From NCBI GenBank assembly GCA_001692895.1, contig KV748197.1, positions 1,555,813 through 1,619,812 of the forward strand: DNA of 64,000 nt, in the 5' to 3' direction. The DNA comes from Cenococcum geophilum 1.58. Lineage: Eukaryota > Ascomycota > Dothideomycetes > Gloniales > Gloniaceae. The notes under the pieces are model-generated. The model was not told the DNA's origin. It saw nothing but the letters and a program-made list of their open reading frames with translations, and did no database searches. The translations under genes were made by a program, and so were the position numbers. This document shows positions 51,605 to 64,000 of the stretch, in pieces. Positions within the stretch are counted from its first letter, which is position 1. Every line of letters begins with the position of its first letter.

Positions 51605-54028
51605 TGTTATGGGACGGGGTAGTGGCTATAAGACGTATGTATTCGAGGAGTCTACAAGATATTACGCGATCGATCGTAAGGGTCGAGGGCGTAAGGAGGT
51701 GATATACCTACGCGTAGCTAACATAAGCTGTACGTGAGGTGTACGCGAGAGCACGGGGCTCTCCTATGGAGGCCCCTGCGGTGGGGTTCCGTAACACTAC
51801 CCCCCCTCTTATAGAGGCGGAGCTCCGGCGACGCTGTGGTTACTATATATTTATAGAAGGGATACTTAGGGTATAGAAAAGAAGAAAAGGGGGGTATCGC
51901 TAAAGGCTTAAAACAACGTTATATAATAAGGCTTGGCATCTAAGAATCCGACTAATTAGATAACTTTAACCGCCGGTTAAAGTTCCTAGATATCTTAACG
52001 ATATTCCGGTCACGTAATCGCACTTTACTGTAATCTAACGGCAATCTAATGGCAATTTGCCCCTACGTGGTAATGTATAACGGTTTAACTCTATAAGGGC
52101 TCCTATAGAGGATTAGGTATAAAATCTCTGCTTAGGCCCGGTTTCTATAGGTTCGCGTAGTAAAAGTCGCTAATTAGATCCTTTGCATTTTTGAAGTCTT
52201 CCTATAGTTGCCATTCTAGCTAATTTATATTAAATCCTGTGTATATAGCTCTGTAGTAGAGCCGTTATCCTCTGCCTTTACCAAAGTATTTAGAGTTAAT
52301 AATTTATTTAACGGTCCACTCCTTATAGTTCTTGTCTTTATTCTTATCTCGAATTAGTACTAATAGGGGTTTAGGCTATATCTGCCCCGGTAAGGGGTTA
52401 GGCTAGTAAAGGTGTAGTAGCTATAGGTAAAATACAGGCTATATCCCGCGGGTGGCTAGGGTAGGTAGAAGCTCTAGCTTATATACGGCTCCCCTATTAA
52501 TAACTTATTTAATTAGGTAGGGGCTAAGGTTCTTATAATTAAGTAACTTTATAGGCCTCTGCGTAGAGATATTACGTGCATTTAGCTATACCCAGTTGCT
52601 AACACGCATCTCCGGTGGTGGCGTTCTATGACGGTTGGCGAAGTAGGCCTGCTTTGCTTAAGCTTAGGCCATTTCTCCCTTGCAATAGTTAAGTAGATTT
52701 TTTATACGGTCTGCATGCTAGTCGGCAAGTAGCATCTTAAGGTATTTTCCATATGGCAGTTTCTTATTAATAGGTTCTAGTGGTTCTATACTAGATTAGG
52801 GGTAATATCCCTTATTCGCGAAGAACGGGGTAAGTCCTATAGTAGTTAACACGTAGTTATTCGCTGCGAATTTACCTAGTAGGAGGTAATCCACCTAGTT
52901 ATCTTAACTATAGGCGACTACCTGTCATAGGTACGCTTTTATACTAGTATTAGCGTTTTCCAGTTACCTAGTAGTTTTATAGTAGAAGGATATAAACATT
53001 TTAATAAAGATGCTAAGGTGTTAGCAGATTCGTCTCTATATATTAAAGCCGAACTATATACCTTAGTCGGACGTAATTAAGTTAGGTAACCTATATAATT
53101 AGTAGATTTCGCGAAGGAAGGCGTTAGTGACATTGCTAATAGCTACGCCTTTGGTTGGGACGTAGTAGCGCTCTTTTATAAGTCGGCATATTATTATAAG
53201 GATGTTCTTATAGGTACGGCTATGTCGCTTATAGAGTGGTAGATTAACAACGAAATCTATAGCGATATCTGCCTATTATTATATAGGTACTAGTAAAGGG
53301 TATAGTAGTCCTTAGTACTTTATATTAAAGGCCTTAGCGCGCTTATAACCGTAGTAGGCGCCTATAAAGCGTTTAACTAAGTCTATTATTTTAGGCCAGA
53401 AGTAGTATCGGCTAAGAAGCTTATAGGTTCCTCCTCTACCTAGGTAGCCGCTTAATTAGAAGTTATAGGCCATTTGGATTAGTTGCCGTTATAGATTTTC
53501 TAAGTTAGGGATAAATAGACGGCCTCTATAATAGAGCCTGTTCTCTTTTACTTCTAAGGCTACTATATTAATCTAGCCTAAGCTTTAGAGTTTAGTTAGC
53601 AGCGTACGGGCGCCGGCGGTCTTTGCGGCAATAAGTTAATACAGTAATAGGTTAATAGAGGTATTATATGCCGTAGTAATAAGCTCGTTAATTTCGGGAG
53701 GTAATTCTAGTTCTATAGTGTGGAGCTAAGGTATAGTTAGCTCTATTGTAGGTAGCATACCTAGGGCTAGATTCCGTGCTTTTAGGATCATTTATTGTTA
53801 GAACTAGTTATAGGGGTTATCTTTAGACTAAGGAAGGTCTTATAAGCGGCGTATTAGGCTATTAAGCTTAGTACCTTATACTCCTAGCCTATATNCAATT
53901 TTAAAGTTAAAACTAGAGAGGAACTCGTTCCAGCGTACTTGGCGTTAGTTTAGCTATTTCGTAGTTATAAAGTACTTAAGGTTGCGATAATCCGTAAGGA
54001 CTTTAGTTGGCTGGTTAGGTTCTGCTAT
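51605..54028 (-). mobile_element. Ty3/gypsy element D2, 3' part
   Basis: LTR 51605-51796 (192 bp, tgttatggga ... gtaaca), polypurine complement ctacccccc next to it, hairpin motif 51962-51984. A chromodomain-like tail follows (about 52330-52160: E-W-Q-x-x-E-D-F-K-N-A-K-D-L), then integrase further up. The same family as D1 but less RIP-mutated. Breaks at 54028 where the TIR element begins, earlier than D1 does, so RT is absent. gggtg at 51600-51604 is the outer flank. Confidence 0.82.
51962..51984. repeat. 23-nt hairpin motif in gypsy D2
   Basis: Perfect copy of the arms aactttaaccg / cggttaaagtt. Confidence 0.9.
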
Positions 54029-54316
54029 ATCGGCAAAATATAGTACCCTACCAATGGCCTCAATGGTTGGTGGTTGACGCAATTGGCGCGCAGTTAAGGG
54101 CATTTGGCAACTCGACCGACTAGCCTATGTCGTGTTTTTTTAACACGTAGCCTGCGCGCAGCCTACGCGCAACTTGCGCGCAACCTACGCGCAACCTACA
54201 CGCAACCTACAACCACAATTATATTTAGAGCCATCTACCTCTTTTATACTAATAGTATATTTTAGATAATAAACAAAGGCTACTTTAAAGCTATTTATAA
54301 GGCTAGTAAGGTAAAT
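54029..54316. repeat. left terminal inverted repeat of the TIR element
   Basis: Matches 56448-56187 in reverse complement, ending inward at ggctagtaaggtaaat. Includes a hairpin cgtgtt-ttttt-aacacg (54131-54147) and an array of about six 10-11-bp subrepeats acgcgcaacct (about 54155-54215). Confidence 0.85.
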
Positions 54317-54366
54317 TGCATTAGGAAAATATTCGCAGGATGAGATTCAAGTTAACTTTGGTGTTC

Positions 54367-54740
54367 GCGTTTCGCGTAATTAACATACAATTTAACTAAC
54401 TCGACACGCAATTAACCAACTTAACACGCAATTAACTAACTTAANANGCAATTTAACTAACTTAACACGCAGTTGACCTACTTAATATGCAATTTAACTA
54501 ACTTAACACGCAGTTAACCTACTTAATATGCAATTTAACTAACTTAATACGCAGTTGACCTACTTAATATATAATTTAACTAACTTAATATATAGTTGAC
54601 CTACTTAACATATAATTTAACTAACTTAATACGCAGTTAACCTACTTAACATATTTAAAAGTTAAATAATACGCAGTTAACCTACTTAACATATTTAAAA
54701 GTTAAATAATACGCAGTTAACCTACTTAATAACTTTAAAA
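54367..54740. repeat. minisatellite 1, about 20-bp unit
   Basis: About 18 copies of an acttaacacgcaattaacta-like unit, in places alternating as 40-41-bp pairs. A+T-rich and partly RIP-mutated (cacgca to tatata). Two ambiguous bases at 54445 and 54447. Confidence 0.85.
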
Positions 54741-54829
54741 GCTAACTGTATATTCCTTAACATGCAATTAAGGTAAAGTTATATACTAATTACGTAAATG
54801 AATTTTTATACAGTTTTATTACTTAGAGG

Positions 54830-55240
54830 CTCTGCATAAGGCTCTACACGAAGCTCTACACGAAGCTCTGCGTACAGAGGCTCTGCACGAAGCTCTGCAC
54901 AAAGCTCTGCACGAAGCTCTGCACGAAGCTCTGCACGAAGCTCTGCACGAAGCTCTGTACGAAGCTCTGCACGAAGCTCTGCACGAAGCTCTGCACGAAG
55001 CTCTGTATGAAGCTCTGCACGAAGTTCTGCACGAAGCTCTACACGAAGCTTTGTATAAGGCTCTACACGAGGCTCTACACGAAGCTCTGCGTACAGAGGC
55101 TCTGCCCGAAGCTCTACGTACAGAGGCTCTGCGCGAAGCTCTGCGTATGGAGGCTCTGCACGAGGCTCTGCACGAAGCTCTGCACGAGGCTCTGCGCGAA
55201 GCTCTGCGTACAGAGGCTCTACACGAAGCTCTGCATTGGG
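54830..55240. repeat. minisatellite 2, 12-bp unit
   Basis: About 33 copies of gaagctctgcac, with gtacagag variants. Because 12 is divisible by 3, several frames on both strands are open (for example 54819-55334 minus); these are products of the repeat and not genes. Confidence 0.92.
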
Positions 55241-55334
55241 TCCCCGCTATATTTCCGATAGCCTCTCCTATGTAGCCACCTTTTTTTTTTATCCATCTAT
55301 CCTTTCTTATATCCTCCCTACCTAGGGAGAGCAC

Positions 55335-55680
55335 CAGAACGGCAGCTAGTAGAGGACCGTCGCCAGAACTAGACGACCGTTACCAGAACCAGACGACCGT
55401 CGCCGTCGCCAGAACTAGAACACCGTTACCAGAACCAGACAACCGTCGCCAGAAACGAGACGACCGTCGCCAGAACCAGACGACCATCGCTAGAACTAGA
55501 CGACCGTTACCAGAACCAGACGACCATCGCCGTCGCCAGACGACCGTACCAGAACCACACAACCGTCGCCAGACGACCGTCGCCAGAGCTAGACGACCGT
55601 CGCCAGAACCAGACGACCGTTACCAGAACTAGACGACCGTCGCCAGAACCAGACGACCGTCGCCAGAGCCAGACGACAAC
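55335..55680. repeat. minisatellite 3, about 20-bp unit
   Basis: About 17 copies of gacgaccgtcgccagaacca-like units with some shorter ones. C+G-rich, in contrast to its surroundings. Confidence 0.9.
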
Positions 55681-55734
55681 GACTAGCCAGCGAACACTAT
55701 AAACAATTCAATCGATTGATCAAATCAAGGCAGC

Positions 55735-56130
55735 ACAGACAGGTAGGCACAAACAGAGAGATGCTGACGGGTAGGCAGATGCTGACAGGTAGGCAGATGC
55801 AGACTAGTAATTAGATGCAGACAGGCAAGCAGATGCAGACAGGTAAGTAAATGCTAACGGGTAGGCAGATATAGATAGGTAGGCAGATGCAAATAGGTAG
55901 GCGATGCAGACAGGTAGGCGATGCAGACAGGTAGGCAATGCAGATAGGTAGGCGATATAGATAGGTAGGCAATATAAACAGGTAGGCGATGCAGATAGGT
56001 AGGCGATGTAAATAGGTAGGCGATATAGACAGGTAGGCAATGCAGATAGGTAGGCGATACAGACAGGTAGGCAATGTAGACAGGTAGGCGATATAGGTAG
56101 GTAGGTAGATAGGTAGGTAGGTAAGTCAAT
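55735..56130. repeat. minisatellite 4, 17-18-bp unit, ending in a gtag run
   Basis: About eight 18-bp units (gcagatgctgacaggtag) pass into about a dozen 17-bp units (gcgatgcagacaggtag) and end in short gtag repeats (about 56094-56150). Open frames here are again by-products of the repeat. Confidence 0.9.
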
Positions 56131-56186
56131 AGGTAGATAGGTAGAAGAGAACCATTACTATATTATATTAAATTATCTAAAATAAT

Positions 56187-56448
56187 ATTTATTTTGCTAG
56201 CCTTATAAATAGCCTTAAAGTAGCTTTTATTTATTTAAAATATGCTATTAGTATAAAAGAGGTAAATATAATTGTGGTTGCCAAATGCGCAGATTGCTGG
56301 CAGGTTTCGCGCAGGTTGCGCGCAGGCTGCGTGTTAAAAAAACACGATATAGGCTAGTCGGTCGAGTTGCTAAATGCCCTTAACTGCGCGCCAATTGCGT
56401 CAACCACCAACCATTGAGGCCATTAGTAGGGTACTATATTTTGCCGAT
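56187..56448. repeat. right terminal inverted repeat of the TIR element
   Basis: Reverse complement of the left TIR, with hairpin cgtgttaaaaaaacacg (56330-56346). It lacks part of the acgcgcaacct subrepeats. Confidence 0.85.
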
Positions 56449-57068
56449 GTGTATATACTTCTTTATATAATCCATTATATTATTTTAGACAATTTAATAT
56501 AATATTCTAACTATTTTATAATATATTCTAAAAGTATAAAACCTTTCCTGCTCTCCCTACAACAATAATATACTATAAGTATTTAGCTTTACTAGCATAG
56601 CATATATATATAGCTAAAAAGTAGCTACTAAGAGTAGCAGATATAGGCCGAAAGAAAGGTAGATTAAGAGCTAGTATATATAATAAAGAAGCCGTAGTTA
56701 TCCTATAGGAGAGTATAGAAAGTCCTACACCTAATCTCTTACTAAAAACTCTACTAGCTCCTCTATATTAGAGTCTAGAGTATATATTATAAACTTTATA
56801 TACTACTCCTTATTCTTAATTAAATTTAATATTACTTTTCCGTTACTATACTAGCTATAGCTATCCTCTATAAGGCTGTAGTACTACTTAAATTATATAA
56901 ATAACTTATTAGATTTAAACCTTTCTGGCCTAGGCTTACTAGTTCCTATATTTAGGATAAAGTGGTATATTAAGGCGGAGGATATATATTCTGCTAAATT
57001 TAACAAACTTAGCTAGTTCTAAAAGTTAAATTAGCAAATATTGTAGTAGTAATAGGGCCCTAGATTTT
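56449..57068. other. gene-free degenerate stretch
   Basis: A+T-rich and strongly RIP-mutated. No recognisable gene. In particular it is not the continuation of gypsy D2. Confidence 0.5.
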
Positions 57069-57212
57069 CTAGCTTACTCTAGGGCTCTCCCTTTAAGACG
57101 GACTTGGTGGACTAGTCTAGCCTACTTTAGAGCTCTTTATTTAGGATAGACTTAGTAAACTAGTCTAGCCTACTCTAGAGCTCTCCCTTTAAGATAAACT
57201 TAGTAGATTAGA
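57069..57212. repeat. tandem repeat, 48 bp x 3
   Basis: Three 48-bp units starting ctagcttact / ctagcctact, with transition differences. Confidence 0.9.
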
Positions 57213-57239
57213 TAGTATAGCCTAGCTTACTAATAAATA

Positions 57240-58460
57240 GCCTAAGTTAATAATCGCGTTAGTTTTGTTATTGCTAAGGCTTATAAGGAACCTCTCTCTT
57301 ATATTGTTGCTTAGATCCGCTATAAGGTCGTTAAGGTCATCTTTATACGGGTCCTTAATAATTTCTATAGTTAATTAATCTGGTATTAGGCCTGTAGTAT
57401 GTTTAATAACTATAGACTAAAGCCGTAGCCAGATTCTAGATTGCTATTTTTTAGATATCTAGTTCTAGCTACCTAAGAGGTTAGTATAGGCTTCTATAAT
57501 GGGTTAGAGAATAATAATAGGTAGTAAAACACTAGATATATACTAACCGCTAATAATAGTGCTATAAAAGTTGTCTGTTCCCTTAGACCTAGTTCTATAC
57601 TCCCTAATTATATAATATATTGCTATTAAAACGAAAGCAATAGTATTGCTGGTAAGCTTTTTAAATATATTATAAGAGTAGGGTAATTGGGTAAGGCCGT
57701 TTCTTCCTCTATTATAAAATATACTAGTTATACTAGCAACTATCGCGTTAAAATAGAAGCGGTTATTACTTAGCTATTAACTCTTATTAGCATTTTACTA
57801 AATAGTATGGGTAAAATACCTTTATATAATCCAGCGTAATAAAATTATAATTAGTTAGTAGTTCCATAATTAGTTCAGGCGCGTTATTAAACCCTAGCCT
57901 ATATACCTCCCTTATAACTATATAAGCCTTTATAATCACGTAGTTCCTAAAGTTCCCTATTACGTTAAATAGCTATATATAATATTAAGATTATTAGTAG
58001 ATAATTTAATATAATATTTTTAGTATATAGATACCTTATAAGCGGACACCGGGTTAGGAATATAATTAGCTTTTTTTTATACTGCTTTTAGCTGCTTTAA
58101 AATAGCTTCTAACTATGCCTTTTTTATTATATCCTTAATAAGGCCTATAAAGTGGTTGAACTACGGGTTAATAAGATACCCATTATAAGTCCTAGAGTTA
58201 GTTACTAGCCTTACTAGTAAAATAGACCTATAAAGCGTAAATATAGGCTTATATCTCTTAGGTGGGTTTTCTTTTATATATCGCTGTTATAATATCTAGA
58301 GGTACTCTTCTCTTACCCATATCACGGCAGTTAGGTCAAAATTATCGTGGTTTAACTCGTCCTTACTTTCCCTAGTGCTATCTAGGTCCCCTTTAGATTA
58401 AACACTAAATTAGTATACTCTATATTAGAGGGAGGTCACTTATTTTATAGATGAAGCTAT
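57240..58460 (-). pseudogene. unidentified coding relic 1
   Basis: Read on minus through RIP-type stops, the stretch about 58300-57740 gives a coherent frame: R-L-V-T-N-S-R-T-Y-N-G-Y-L-I-N-P, N-H-F-I-G-L-I-K-D-I-I-K-K-A, S-A-Y-K-V-S-I-Y, F-N-V-I-G-N-F-R-N-Y-V-I-I-K-A, E-L-I-M-E-L-L-T-N-Y-N-F. Frame coherence and stops only at Gln/Trp-type codons suggest a former protein. I do not recognise a family; no catalytic motif stands out. Confidence 0.4.
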
Positions 58461-58518
58461 ATTAGGGTTTAGGCGAATATAGCTTACTAGGGAGAATGTA
58501 AAGCTAAATATTAGTTAT

Positions 58519-58638
58519 TTACGCGATAAGGTTTAGATTAGCCGCGTGGGAGAGTATTTTAAACTAGCACGCAATTATTTACGCGGTAAGGTACAGATTG
58601 GGCGTATAAAAGAGTATTTTAAACTAATACGCAATTGT
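58519..58638. repeat. tandem duplication, 60 bp x 2
   Basis: Two 60-bp units starting ttacgcgataagg / ttacgcggtaagg. Confidence 0.88.
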
Positions 58639-58945
58639 TAAGAGCCGGAGGTATATTACGAAGATACTGCTTTTTATAGCGGTGGGCGGTTAGATAGTAA
58701 AGAGAGTGTTCTATTTACTAGGGCTCGCCAAGTGCTAAATAGTAGAGGAGACTATTAAGTATTATAGTTAGACTCTGGTTATATATAAAGGTATAACCTA
58801 CCTTAACTAAAAAATTAGGACTTTGCGTCTTTAACTAAGCTAGTTTTACTACCAGATTATTAACAGATTTAGTAGATTTATTAATATTTAGTTACTATTG
58901 TTTCGTAAAAGAAGCAGGTATAGACTCGCAGTCACTATCCTTATT

Positions 58946-59245
58946 ATTAGAGATTACCCTTTTTGGCCGGAGGCGGCCATATACATTTTATATATTATTA
59001 GCCAGCTTAATATATTATATACGACATTAATAGGGTCTATTATATGCCTACTCCTCTCTATACCTAGATATAACTAGACCAGAGTTGCTATTCTTATTAT
59101 TAAATATTACCCTTTTAAGCCGGAGGCGGCTATACACATTCTATATATTATTAGCCAGCTTAATATATTATATTTAACGTTAATGGGGTCTATTATATGC
59201 CTACTCCTCTTCGCGTCTAGATATAACTAGACCAGAGTTATAATA
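58946..59245. repeat. tandem duplication, about 153 bp x 2
   Basis: The units share ccggaggcggc, ttattagccagcttaata and atataactagaccagagtt at a period of 153 bp. Confidence 0.88.
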
Positions 59246-59254
59246 TTGCTCGTT

Positions 59255-59326
59255 CTGGCTAGGTTTTATATACTTATTCTAGCTAGGTTCTATATACTCG
59301 TCCTAGCTGGGTTTCACGTACTTATT
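59255..59326. repeat. tandem repeat, 24 bp x 3
   Basis: Units ctggctaggttttatatac..., ctagctaggttctatatac..., ctagctgggtttcacgtac...; directly after the 153-bp duplication. Confidence 0.88.
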
Positions 59327-59329
59327 CTC

Positions 59330-61000
59330 TATTAGCGCGTTCTTCCTTCCGTTAGCTAGGACGTAGGCAACTCCTAGTAGTAGGCTAGGTAGAGACGTAA
59401 GGTTAATTATACTAGTTATCCTTATTTCCTTATCCTACGTTGACTTAAAGTAGGGTTCTTACTACTAGTTTAAGTATTTAATAACGCGTTTTTATATTTA
59501 CCTGCCATAGTAACACTCCTATATTTGCCTAGTTAGCAGAAGGTATAGCTTATAGCTAGAATAGGTTACCTTATAGCTGTTTCTGTAATATTTAGGGCGT
59601 ATATAGATTAACAACTTAAAAGAATGTATACTAGTATAGTATATATTAGACTAATAGTAGTATTAGTAGGAGTATTATTACTATAGTGCTTACAAATAAC
59701 TTAAATAGGGGTGTATTTATTATAATTAGCTGCTAGTTCTAACCGGTTGCGGTTAAGCTATAACCGTAACCTATTAACTTGCGTTAAGTTAGTAGTTAAG
59801 AAAACATTATTATATAGTTAAAGATTATTTAATACTATTTGCTATTATACGCGAAACTGTTTTATTCTATTAGCATATCCCTTAGTAGATACGGTATGTG
59901 TATATAAAAGGTTAAACGTTAATCCCAGCAATAAAAGTAGTAGGCTAGTAAGGCTCGTGTCTAAATTTAACAGGGAGGTACCTTATTAAACTACTTTACC
60001 CACCTAGGGCGCTAGCTTTTAGATCCTATACCTTATTCTAGTCCACCTATACTAGGTTTAACACCTATTTCGCGCTTAAAGCGAAGCTTATCCACCTTAT
60101 CCGTATAGCTTACTAGTGTAGATAATGCTAGGGTAGGCATAGGCGGCATATAGGACAGTAATTACACTTTTATACAGTTATATCGCTATATTCCACACCC
60201 TTATATAATACCTAGTATTTCTACCGTAAACATCCAACGTTATTCTTCCGCGTTGTTAACCCCGCTAGCCTATAGTAAGCCTAACCTATCCCCTATATAT
60301 ATATTGTAATAGCAATTAAATTTAGCAGAATAGTAAGGAAAGCGTAAGCATAAATATAAGGATTGGGTGTTGGATATTAAGAGTAAGCTAGGGACAGTAT
60401 TAACATATATTACCTTAACAAGTTTACTAAAAAAAACGGGTATAAACCTTAGGCTTTATCGTCTAATCCCCTTAGGCGTTTTAAGAATGCCGGATAAGTT
60501 ATAAGAATATCTTAGGTCACATTATTTTAAGACTCCCTCGCCTAATAGTATACTAAGGGGCTCTATTAAGCCATCTACCTTTATATATAGTAATCTATTA
60601 AACCAGTAAGCATTCTAGATAAAGTAGTGGCTTTAAAGCGTATAATCTATGCTACGGTTATAGTTACCTTTGCCTTTTCTATTGCGGGTTAAGGCGTAAA
60701 GTAAGGGCTTTTTTTTGACTAGAAGAGGTTTTTTAGGACAGCTATAGGTTAAGTATCGCCTTAGTATTAACCCGTTTACCAGTTCTACCTATTTTTATAT
60801 ATATAGAGTGCGAGTTATTTAGTAAAGGCAAGGGTGCGGAAATAGAGGGTAAGTAATTATATTATTCTTGGCTAGCAGCGTAGACTATAAATACAAGTTA
60901 GTAACGTTGGCTTAACTTTAAGCAGTAACCTACTTGTTCTTCTTTATTCTATTATAAATAAAAACCTATCTATTTCTTATAAAAACATATCCTTAACTAT
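59330..61000. other. degenerate stretch with scattered minus-frame remnants and a hairpin
   Basis: No clear gene. A near-perfect hairpin ggttgcggtta-agct-(a)taaccgtaacc lies at 59745-59771. Minus-frame remnants near 60640-60400 (A-L-K-P-L-L-Y, I-T-I-Y-K-G-R-W-L-N-R-A-P) may belong to the same lost gene as the next relic. Confidence 0.35.
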
Positions 61001-61320
61001 ACTACGCTATTTCTCTTCGTTTATAAGCTGAATTCGTCCTCTAGCTATCTTATTACCAATATAATAGTAAAGCGTTTCGCTCTTAAGGTTAAAGTTAATA
61101 TCCTAGCCTAGTATGTCTATAAATGTATTAAAGCTTAGATTATTAACGTATATATTTAGAGTGTTATTTTTACCAGTCGCTAGCTTTCGGGTTAGGATAA
61201 TTATTAGCTCTTTATTAGCTGCCCGCCGGATTAGTATTATTATTATTTTATATAACCTTAGTATTCCCTCCTGCCTTATTGCCTTTGGTATACCGGCTAG
61301 TGGATAATACGCGATAGCGG
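61000..61320 (-). pseudogene. unidentified coding relic 2
   Basis: Minus frame from 61315: P-L-A-G-I-P-K-A-I-R-Q-E-G-I-L-R-L-Y-K, R-R-A-A-N-K-E-L-I-I-I-L-T-R-K-L-A-T-G-K, F-N-T-F-I-D-I-L-G, L-K-S-E-T-L-Y-Y-Y-I-G-N-K-I-A. Coherent for about 100 codons with few stops; I do not recognise it. The plus-strand open frame over the same bases (61113-61307) is hydrophobic and more likely its shadow. Confidence 0.4.
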
Positions 61321-62083
61321 AGTATAGGAGTACTGGGTTACCTATTATAATTTACCTAGTAAGAGCCGTTTTATTTATTTAACGCGTTACGTTATAGCTG
61401 CAGCGCTAGGTAAGCTATTTAATATATTTAGTATATAGGTTCTTAGGTAAACCTAGAAACACAGATAGGAATTTATTAGAGATTTTGTTTAATATTTACC
61501 GTATTTATACCTTACTTATAAGGGAGCGTAGTGGCTGTCTAAGGAGCCCGCGCGTTAACATTTTAATTTTAACATTATAGTAGATCGTATTGTATTGTTC
61601 GTTTATAAGCCCTAGATCTCGCTTAAGAGTGTCTTTAGTATTATAGCTTAGGTCTATTATTAGTGCCATAATTCTAGAAGCGTTAGGGGAAGTATGGCAG
61701 GAAAGATATCTTAATTACACGCTAAGACCGATGCATAGAATTGTGTAGATAGGTATATTGTTTAGTTATTATATAAAATAATTGGTTAAATGTCTTATAA
61801 GAAATGAATAAGCGTATTAGCGAACGCTTCTTTACCTACTATACTACCCAGACTTACAACCTCCTATCCCTTTTATATCTCCGTCTATAAGCTCAATTTA
61901 GCACCTAGATTTGTTAATACTTTTTTTTTTATATATTTTTTATATATTTATTATATTATACTACGTATAATAATGCGCATATAGCCTTTAGGCTATAGTG
62001 CTATAGTTCTATATACATAAATTCTTTCTAGGCAGCTTAACATATACTAGTAACTATATTTGCTAATACTTTAAGACGCCCAA
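61320..62083. other. degenerate A+T-rich stretch
   Basis: No gene, LTR or repeat recognised; a run of T at 61920-61929 and alternating A/T afterwards. Likely decayed repeat DNA. Confidence 0.4.
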
Positions 62084-62560
62084 TTAGCCCATAACTGGTA
62101 GAGCCTAGTTAGCACAATTAGAGGTCCTAACCTCTATTAAAATACTTAATATCCCTAATAAGGGCCAGAATATTATTAGCGAAAACGGAGATATTTTACT
62201 ACAAGTTAATAAGATCTTAGGTCTATATGGCTTAATAAAGGAGTATCTAAGCTCTTAATATAATCTTTTAAGAGAAGACATAATTAAACCGTTAAGAGAG
62301 GTAGTAGGTTAAATTAGAGTAGACCCTTTTTAGTTTACCAGAATCTGGATATAGTAATGGAGTCGGTATATATAAATAGATAAGCATGCTATAATTCTAA
62401 AGTAGTTATCCCCTAATATCTATAAGGTCCATACCAGCTTAATAATATTTTTACCTTAAGGGCTAGTAATCTGCGTAGCATTCTTACTCAGGAGAGTAGG
62501 GAAGATAATCCGTTAGGATTAGTTAAAAAGACTAGTCGCTAGGTCTCTAGTTGCTTTAAC
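62084..62560 (+). pseudogene. unidentified coding relic 3
   Basis: Plus frame from 62084 (D-A-Q-L-A-H-N-W) is coherent for about 155 codons, with stops only as TAA/TAG: S-L-V-S-T-I-R-G-P-N-L-Y, S-F-K-R-R-H-N, R-P-F-L-V-Y-Q-N-L-D-I-V-M-E, S-K-V-V-I-P, N-I-F-T-L-R-A-S-N-L-R-S-I-L-T-Q-E-S-R-E-D-N-P-L-G-L. Charged, soluble-looking, no membrane segment. No family recognised. The neighbouring bases 62560-63300 have shorter coherent pieces in several frames. Confidence 0.45.
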
Positions 62561-63355
62561 TCCTAAGATTAATAATTTTTAAATAAAATATATACTCGTG
62601 GTAGTGGCGGCGAGACTATTAGCTACATTAGAACAGAATCCCCTGGAGGTTAACTTATTCTTTAAGACCTAAAGATATTAAGATTAACTTATCCGTATTA
62701 TAGACAATAGTTAAGAAATAAACTAGATTTTATGAAGTTAGTTATTACACTATATTAGCATTATAAAAGCTAATAAGAGAGCTATAAGTGTGTAATATTT
62801 TCTAAATAAGAAGATATCTAACTACTAATAGATTCCCGTTATTAGAACACCTTATTTAAGTTTAATAGAATATTAAAGCACTATAATACGTCATAAATAA
62901 GCCTTATACGGATCTTAGTTTAATTATAGCTATTAAGGATACTTCCTTATTTAAGAATATTTATATTCTTAAAGACTGGTTAGATATAACTACTATAGGG
63001 CTTAATAAATCTTAAGCCACTATACTAAAACGAGTTCTTATAAAGCGTCTTATAATAATCCAAAGACCTCTAGGCACTAAAAAAATATAGCTTTAAAGGC
63101 GTTGCTCAGCAATATAACAATAGAAGATCCCCCTATTATTATTATATATTATACAAACCATACGCTAGACTAGTTATTTAGGTATATTGCTTAAAGTAAT
63201 ATATACTTTATAAAATTTTCTAGTACTTCTAACCGTCTTAATACTATTGCTTATACGGATAGACGATATTACACTATATTAGGCGCCAGGGCCGTAGGAG
63301 TAGGAAGAAGAGGAAGTGTTAGGGCTCCCTCTTTTTATATCTTGTATTTTATTTT
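62561..63355. other. degenerate stretch between relic 3 and the minisatellite
   Basis: Short coherent plus-strand segments (for example 62770-62950 and 63080-63330) in differing frames, possibly a frameshifted continuation of relic 3. No motif recognised. Confidence 0.3.
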
Positions 63356-63359
63356 TTTA

Positions 63360-63780
63360 TATTGTCTTATATTATCCTGCTATTGTCCTGCTATTGTGTT
63401 ATATTGTCCCATATTGTCCTATATTGTCCTACCATTATATTATATTGTCCTGCCATTATATCATATTGTCCTGCCATTATATTACATTGTCCTGCCATTA
63501 TGTTACATTGTCTTACCATTATATCATATTGTCCTGCCATTATATTACATTGTCCTGCCATTATATTATATTGTCCTGCCATTATATCATATTATCCTAT
63601 TATCGCCCTGCTATTATATTATATTGTCCTAATATTATCCTACCATTGTCCTGCCATTATGTCATATTATCCTATTATTGTCCTACTATTGTGTTATATT
63701 ATCCTATTATTGTCCTACCATTATATTATATTGTCCTATTATTATCTTATATTATCCTGCTATTGTCTTAGTACTACTAT
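63360..63780. repeat. minisatellite, 21-bp unit
   Basis: About 10 regular copies of attgtcctgccattatatta(c) between about 63420 and 63600, flanked by less regular units to 63780. Because 21 is divisible by 3, open frames occur on both strands (hydrophobic L-P-L-Y-Y-I-V repeats); these are not taken as genes. Confidence 0.9.
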
Positions 63781-64000
63781 ATACTTTTTACTATTTACTA
63801 AGATTATAGTTATAGGTATTTATCGGCCAGGATCCGGGCAGTAACTTTTAGCAGTAATTTTACTACCCGAATCTCTTATAGATCAATTAATTGGTATAGA
63901 GCTGTTATATTATAGTAAAGCTATATCTAAGCAATCTATATCGTGATCCTTGGCATAGTGTTATACGTAGAAATATTTAATCGTTAGATTTAGGAAGGTG
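63781..64000. other. end of window, with an imperfect hairpin
   Basis: cgggcagtaa (about 63835-63844) pairs with ttactacccg (about 63864-63873) around a short loop. No gene seen. Confidence 0.4.

Follow-up and report, generated by a model that had tools for sequence, protein, structure and literature searches.

The window, the whole 64,000-nucleotide stretch of DNA analysed here (C22:1555813-1619812, in a genome of 177.19 Mb and 162 contigs), holds a copy of X, a repeated, mobile, non-autonomous family whose ends are Plavaka-type (CACTA/EnSpm-related) and whose interior, made up of several minisatellites, is unusual. Taken as a whole, the region is best explained, and with high probability, by nesting: X sits inside a longer element, E, and both are DNA transposons with related ends. 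The features on which this reading draws are as follows, in window coordinates.

54028..54318, plus strand: left end of E, the left TIR of a preliminary description of this DNA; 92.0-95.5% identity to the same end in 20 fetched E copies, with TA before it (54026-54027)
54317..54318, unstranded: left TSD of X (TG), from the flanking dinucleotides and the empty site in E copies
54319..56449, plus strand: element X, a non-autonomous transposon of 2131 bp that holds the four minisatellites; placed by the left terminus from 7 copies, the TSD and the empty site
54319..54332, plus strand: left short TIR of X, CATTAGGAAAATAT (CATCGGGAAAATAT in 6/8 copies), by comparison with the right end
54380..54731, unstranded: array 1, 20/41-bp units (TRF)
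54829..55235, unstranded: array 2, 12-bp units (GCTCTGCACGAA); TRF, 32.7 copies, score 455
55351..55677, unstranded: array 3, 20-bp units (AGACGACCGTCGCCAGAACC); TRF, 16.4 copies
55759..56144, unstranded: array 4, 17/18-bp units, then a TAGG microsatellite; TRF, units at 55759-56089, 19 copies
56159..56449, minus strand: right subterminal region of X, 82% homologous to the E left end, with 11-bp subrepeats (56287-56331) and a palindrome (56330-56346)
56436..56449, minus strand: right short TIR of X, ATATTTTGCCGATG, by comparison with the left end
56450..56451, unstranded: right TSD of X (TG), from the flanking dinucleotides and the resumption of E
56452..64000, plus strand: body of E, resuming past X and leaving the window; 90.7% identity over 7549 bp to one fetched copy (L009)
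57540..57776, minus strand: E cargo remnant, DUF6532-like (PF20149); 4.2e-4, below cut-off, and 7.5e-6, above cut-off, in L019
62424..62669, plus strand: E cargo remnant, ZNFX1 domain (PF25396); 1.1e-7, and 1.7e-8 in L019

The stretch 54319-56449 is read as an insertion into E because 54028-54318 holds the first ~290 bases of E, whose sequence is taken up again at 56452. Copies of E were sought in the genome with 54029-54316 as query, the best 40 of 620 candidates being scored, and the 20 best of the 39 matches outside the window were fetched, each with about 9 kb inward (L009-L028). All 20 have an X-free empty site, AAATT(G/A)TATA(T/C)AC, which in L018, L021 and L026 carries the TG and reads AAATTGTATA(T/C)AC; X adjoins the left end of E in none of them. 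Past the left end, E is collinear in 19 of the 20, with 84-91% identity to L009 in long pieces and with the collinearity falling into several pieces in L010, L012, L018 and L026. The left end itself begins CATCGGC, and TA stands directly before CATCGG in 13 of 19 fetched copies, the left flank alone being seen. One copy, L028 (1294-9211), has E split by another insertion, of ~7.9 kb, at L009 position ~1220, about 50 bp from the X site; the E pieces overlap there by 6 bp, and the insertion holds a reverse piece of array 3 with adjoining spacer.

The inverted repeats that frame the arrays are real (162 nt at 93% between 54029-54190 and 56287-56448, with more pieces from 54233-54269 and 54268-54316), and the apparent TIR pair is the right end of X facing the left end of E, homologous ends of two elements. 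The two ends agree at 82% over 288 bp, with 29 bp more at 93% past an indel of ~27 bp. Because these homologous ends face each other across X, they resemble one long TIR pair, a trap that nested elements with homologous ends can set wherever they mimic a single long-TIR element. The insertion point of X lies within 1-2 bp of the ~27-bp indel that separates the homologous ends of E and X, an unexplained coincidence.

The borders of X were drawn from eight copies selected by their interior, namely the window copy and L038-L044. As a genome query, the interior gave matches at all 40 places scored (best 40 of 2464 candidates), so its recurrence is not due to chance. The window copy is 2131 bp long and the seven others 2032-2305 bp. 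The left terminus, CATCGGGAAAATATTCGCAGG in other copies, reads CATTAGG.. in the window, and the right end is ATTTTGCCGATG; upstream of array 1 in L038-L044 stand the short terminus CATCGGGAAAATATTCGCAGGAT (TATTAGG.. in L044) and then flanks that differ. The short TIRs of X are imperfect and ~14 bp long, the two ends agreeing at 11-13 of 14 bases and, past these, at 7-8 of 30 (8 copies). Matching 2-bp TSDs (TG, TA four times, CA, AA) flank seven of the eight copies; unlike these, L044 has flanking dinucleotides that do not match. Viewed as a candidate non-autonomous element of Plavaka type, X has a 2-bp TSD in 7/8 copies and, at one of its two ends, the right, homology to the left end of E, with an identical terminal motif. 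Nesting recurs in L040 (C2:646662-651531), where an outer X copy holds a second X copy within its array 4, that is, X within X minisatellites; a 79.5% TIR-like stretch ~220 bp upstream of array 1 in that locus is the end of the outer X, with array-4 sequence between.

That X is a family is also apparent from its 14-base terminus, ATATTTTSCCGATG, which occurs 667 times in the genome versus 16 times for the reversed control. The 100 places listed of these 667 include 32 inward-facing pairs of neighbours, of which 22 are separated by 1.5-4 kb, and no outward-facing pair was found within 5 kb.

The preliminary description had located four tandem arrays in a row, with which TRF agrees, and had proposed a mobile element type carrying this chain of minisatellites; the second proposal is borne out by the many copies and by the presence of arrays 1-4, in the same order, in 8/8 interior-selected copies. 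Array 4 runs into a TAGG microsatellite (12.8 copies, 56094-56144; TRF). An ORF survey of the window copy revealed no genes in X: the four ORFs of at least 80 aa are all confined to arrays 2 and 4 or extend out of them. Because selection by the interior biases a sample toward array-bearing copies, seven copies selected by the right end (L030-L036, out of 39 right-end matches outside the window) were examined as well. Arrays 2, 3 and 4 were matched in all seven and array 1 was seen in three; in L032, L034 and L036 the fetched flank stops inside array 2, before the place of array 1, and in L035 no array 1 could be detected, although 256 bp ahead of the array-2 match were readable. The comparison of copies that had been suggested therefore gives arrays 2-4 in all 15 X copies examined, the window counted, and all four arrays in 11/15, the fetched DNA being too short in three of the other four. 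Unit numbers vary: from 29.6 to 41.2 in array 2 and from 15.4 to 18.4 in array 3 across the eight interior-selected copies, with array 2 just ~50-60 bp long in L031 and L033.

The interior had further been called C+G-rich, with CpA/TpG kept in the midst of RIP-saturated DNA; the second statement holds as a matter of degree, and the arrays differ in both respects. G+C is 0.443 in X versus 0.343 in the window, and merely 0.259 in array 1; the ratio (CA+TG)/(AC+GT) is 0.83 versus 0.47, with arrays 2 and 4 at 1.34 and 1.09 and arrays 1 and 3 at 0.46 and 0.43. X too is RIP-type mutated. In eight X copies the variable sites comprise 173/222 at CpA (78%), 85/227 at CpG, 10/145 at CpC and 33/268 at CpT; in E, compared over its first 2.2 kb in 8 of the 20 copies, they comprise 225/237 (95%), 88/132, 26/165 and 82/370, respectively. 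Since CpA is variable at 78% in X versus 95% in E, X has been mutated in this manner less than E.

Classical MITEs are short (under ~800 bp) and gene-free; X is gene-free, but at 2.0-2.3 kb in eight copies it was not classed with them. Elements that carry a single internal array are already known (PMC9659126, PMC4596501). Among MITEs with an internal satellite or microsatellite, Xenopus miDNA4 and the lepidopteran (GTCY)n elements are each mentioned with one repeat type in the part of the source consulted (PMC9659126); like X, they are non-autonomous class II elements that spread a tandem array, whereas the minisatellites of X are four, unrelated to one another and fixed in order, and X is about 2.1 kb long and makes 2-bp TSDs. 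The Tetris foldback element (PMC4079207), tabulated in the same review (PMC9659126), is like X in connecting a non-autonomous DNA transposon with tandem repeats; its repeats are given there as derived from the TIR, whereas the arrays of X fill the interior between short TIRs. BrickBuilt of Porphyromonas gingivalis, as the relevant extract has it, carries a single 23-nt repeat and has 19 copies in one strain (PMC4596501); it too is a small inverted-repeat element with a minisatellite, differing in being bacterial and in having one repeat. In the literature searched on Plavaka and on non-autonomous or minisatellite-bearing elements, we found no description of a fixed chain of four minisatellites in a Plavaka-type element. 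With X, a set of minisatellites is assigned to a transposon family that is defined and has a named transposase relative, and its numerous copies allow the birth of minisatellites and the turnover of their units under RIP to be followed in parallel.

The preliminary description had called for a search for an autonomous relative with the same ends. A long relative with related ends does exist, namely E; in the copy read, its transposase gene is disrupted by 26 stops in 307 codons, and autonomy is not claimed for it. In that copy the Plavaka transposase domain PF18759 was matched at 4.1e-30 (105.6 bits, cut-off 26.3, profile positions 21-325 of 325) from a translation with stops read as the letter X. 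With the DNA of the transposase stretch as query (best 40 of 77 candidates scored), 14 of the 40 scored end matches have this DNA 16.75-16.94 kb inside, in the same orientation, and four further ones have it 17.9, 19.1, 21.8 and 37.9 kb inside. Of these four, the one at 19.1 kb is the window copy, whose transposase stretch (C22:1628919-1629918, about 9 kb beyond the window) lies 19,078 bp inside, equal to 16,945 plus the X insertion. The other 22 end matches have no transposase partner among the matches listed, and some of them are X right ends beside interior matches. Measured from the left end as far as the shared transposase stretch extends, E is at least ~17.9 kb long, and 19.5 kb of it were read in one copy; a probable right end on C3 (C3:1108953), with an inward-facing terminus about 3.1 kb past the start of a transposase match in the same orientation, would give ~20 kb. 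Past the first 9 kb, the sequence of E comes from one copy. No second long TIR was found in the 18.9 kb of E tested; the X-masked transposase stretch, used as a protein query, gave 606 candidates, none at an E-value of 0.001 or below; and a search for KDZ (PF18758) gave no matches here and none in 14 control genomes either, which makes its blank result uninformative.

Two remnants of cargo, ZNFX1 and DUF6532-like, accompany this transposase, the ZNFX1 domain being known from helicase-type proteins. A GCR1_C match was rejected as cargo, lying outside E in the flank of L019, and matches to MgtE_N, Helicase_C and LbR_Ice_bind, below their cut-offs, were left unused. E also has its own 21-bp minisatellite (window 63338-63770), common to other E copies, and further tandem arrays including 18-bp and 10-bp units, one of which begins past the transposase stretch (L046 from ~1400).

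By its predicted transposase E is a Plavaka element, and it is not filed as PlavakaB because its ends, CATCGG, are one base off the CATCA motif. The portion of the published account used here gives PlavakaB 2-3-bp TSDs and CATCA..TGATG ends, groups Plavaka with CACTA/EnSpm and reconstructs its families from Agaricomycotina (PMC12730594). Against that portion, the likenesses are the PF18759 domain of E, the 2-bp TSD of X and termini that start with CATC in both (PMC12730594). X has CATCGG..CCGATG and the left end of E has CATCGGC, so that four of the five bases of the PlavakaB motif agree and the fifth is G, not A (PMC12730594). Unlike Plavaka as described there, E carries ZNFX1 and DUF6532 remnants and resides in a host genome heavily RIP-type mutated, in contrast to the Agaricomycotina source (PMC12730594).

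In the nested reading, E, a long element of the Plavaka kind, inserted at 54026 and was RIP-mutated; the gene-free 2.1-kb X followed, inserting 291 bp from the left terminus of E and duplicating TG. The ends of X are of E type (CATCGG..CCGATG, with a 2-bp TSD and, at one of them, a ~290-bp subterminal region containing 11-bp subrepeats), and its four-minisatellite interior is private to it. A Plavaka transposase of E-type elements most likely recognised the ends of X and moved it by cut and paste, and X was probably mobilised in trans by such a transposase, as the related ends suggest. The arrays would be passengers copied with X; the variation in unit number is observed, and slippage or unequal exchange is the likely process behind it. 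Subterminal transposase-binding repeats are a feature of CACTA-type elements, and the 11-bp subrepeats of X, and perhaps array 1, may be binding sites of this kind.

How X arose is a separate matter, and an origin compatible with nesting, though one we regard as somewhat doubtful, is that X derives from an E-like element by internal deletion, with arrays grown from tandem repeats of E. The homology between the right end of X and the left end of E (288 bp plus 29 bp) and the presence in E of several tandem arrays of its own, the 21-bp, 18-bp and 10-bp units among them, would suit such a descent. The best match of an X array within 18.9 kb of E, however, is a 21-bp stretch of array 1 (E-value 0.008), the left end of X matches just the left terminus of E and chance-level words (E-values of 0.87 or worse), and no intermediates were seen.

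Also compatible with nesting, and tentatively entertained as an unlikely case, is an interior that is partly functional, with array 1 and the 11-bp subrepeats as putative transposase-binding sites kept by selection for transposition. The preliminary description had noted hairpins at 54131-54147 and 56330-56346, which are indeed palindromes, and subrepeats in both inverted repeats, which TRF identifies as 11-bp units at 54151-54210 (left end of E) and 56287-56331 (right end of X). The stretch from palindrome to anchor that contains them changes length among copies in 11-bp steps (in 12/15 X copies and 9/20 E copies, those with both anchors found), so that the array varies by whole units, as would suit binding sites. 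Common inward-facing 8-mers of array 1 and the right subterminal region, the two parts compared, exceed dinucleotide shuffles in L038 (17 versus a mean of 4.5; 0/500 shuffles), L041 (15 versus 5.0; 4/500) and L040 (14 versus 5.3; 6/500), with 6-7 in the opposite orientation. L043 is weaker (10 versus 4.0; 17/500), and with 9-mers the shuffles that reach the observed value number 2, 43, 13 and 94 of 500 in L038, L040, L041 and L043. Since the four copies tested, of 15, are all related, they count as one observation, and the shared 8-mers are a hint of binding sites, not proof.

Further still, X may be a mobile minisatellite carrier whose working body is the arrays: the Plavaka transposase would be bound by array 1 and the 11-bp repeats, and transposition would have seeded hundreds of sites with the same four variable arrays; we consider this improbable. 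If true, the genome would have in X a ready supply of satellite DNA and RIP targets.

That 54029-56448 is a single element that moves as a whole, its four minisatellites enclosed by 260-290-bp TIRs, as the preliminary description had it, is extremely improbable: the inverted repeats and the CATCGG-type termini at both outer ends are real and a transposase could in principle pair them, but the left repeat is the end of a split E that continues from 56452 onward, it adjoins array 1 in 0/7 other interior-selected X copies, and no fetched E copy has X beside its left end. TIR copies free of minisatellites had been proposed as a refutation, and the 20/20 E-left copies that lack X refute the long-TIR unit while leaving the minisatellite element standing.

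Some pairs of X-type termini depart from the common form. At C4:2222388-2222902 an inward pair spans 515 bp and is perhaps an array-free short form. Four of the 22 short inward pairs (C1:1418457, C4:2526345, C4:4173293 and C5:1058265) show the CCCGATG form on both sides rather than pairing a C type with a G type, which may indicate a second subfamily.
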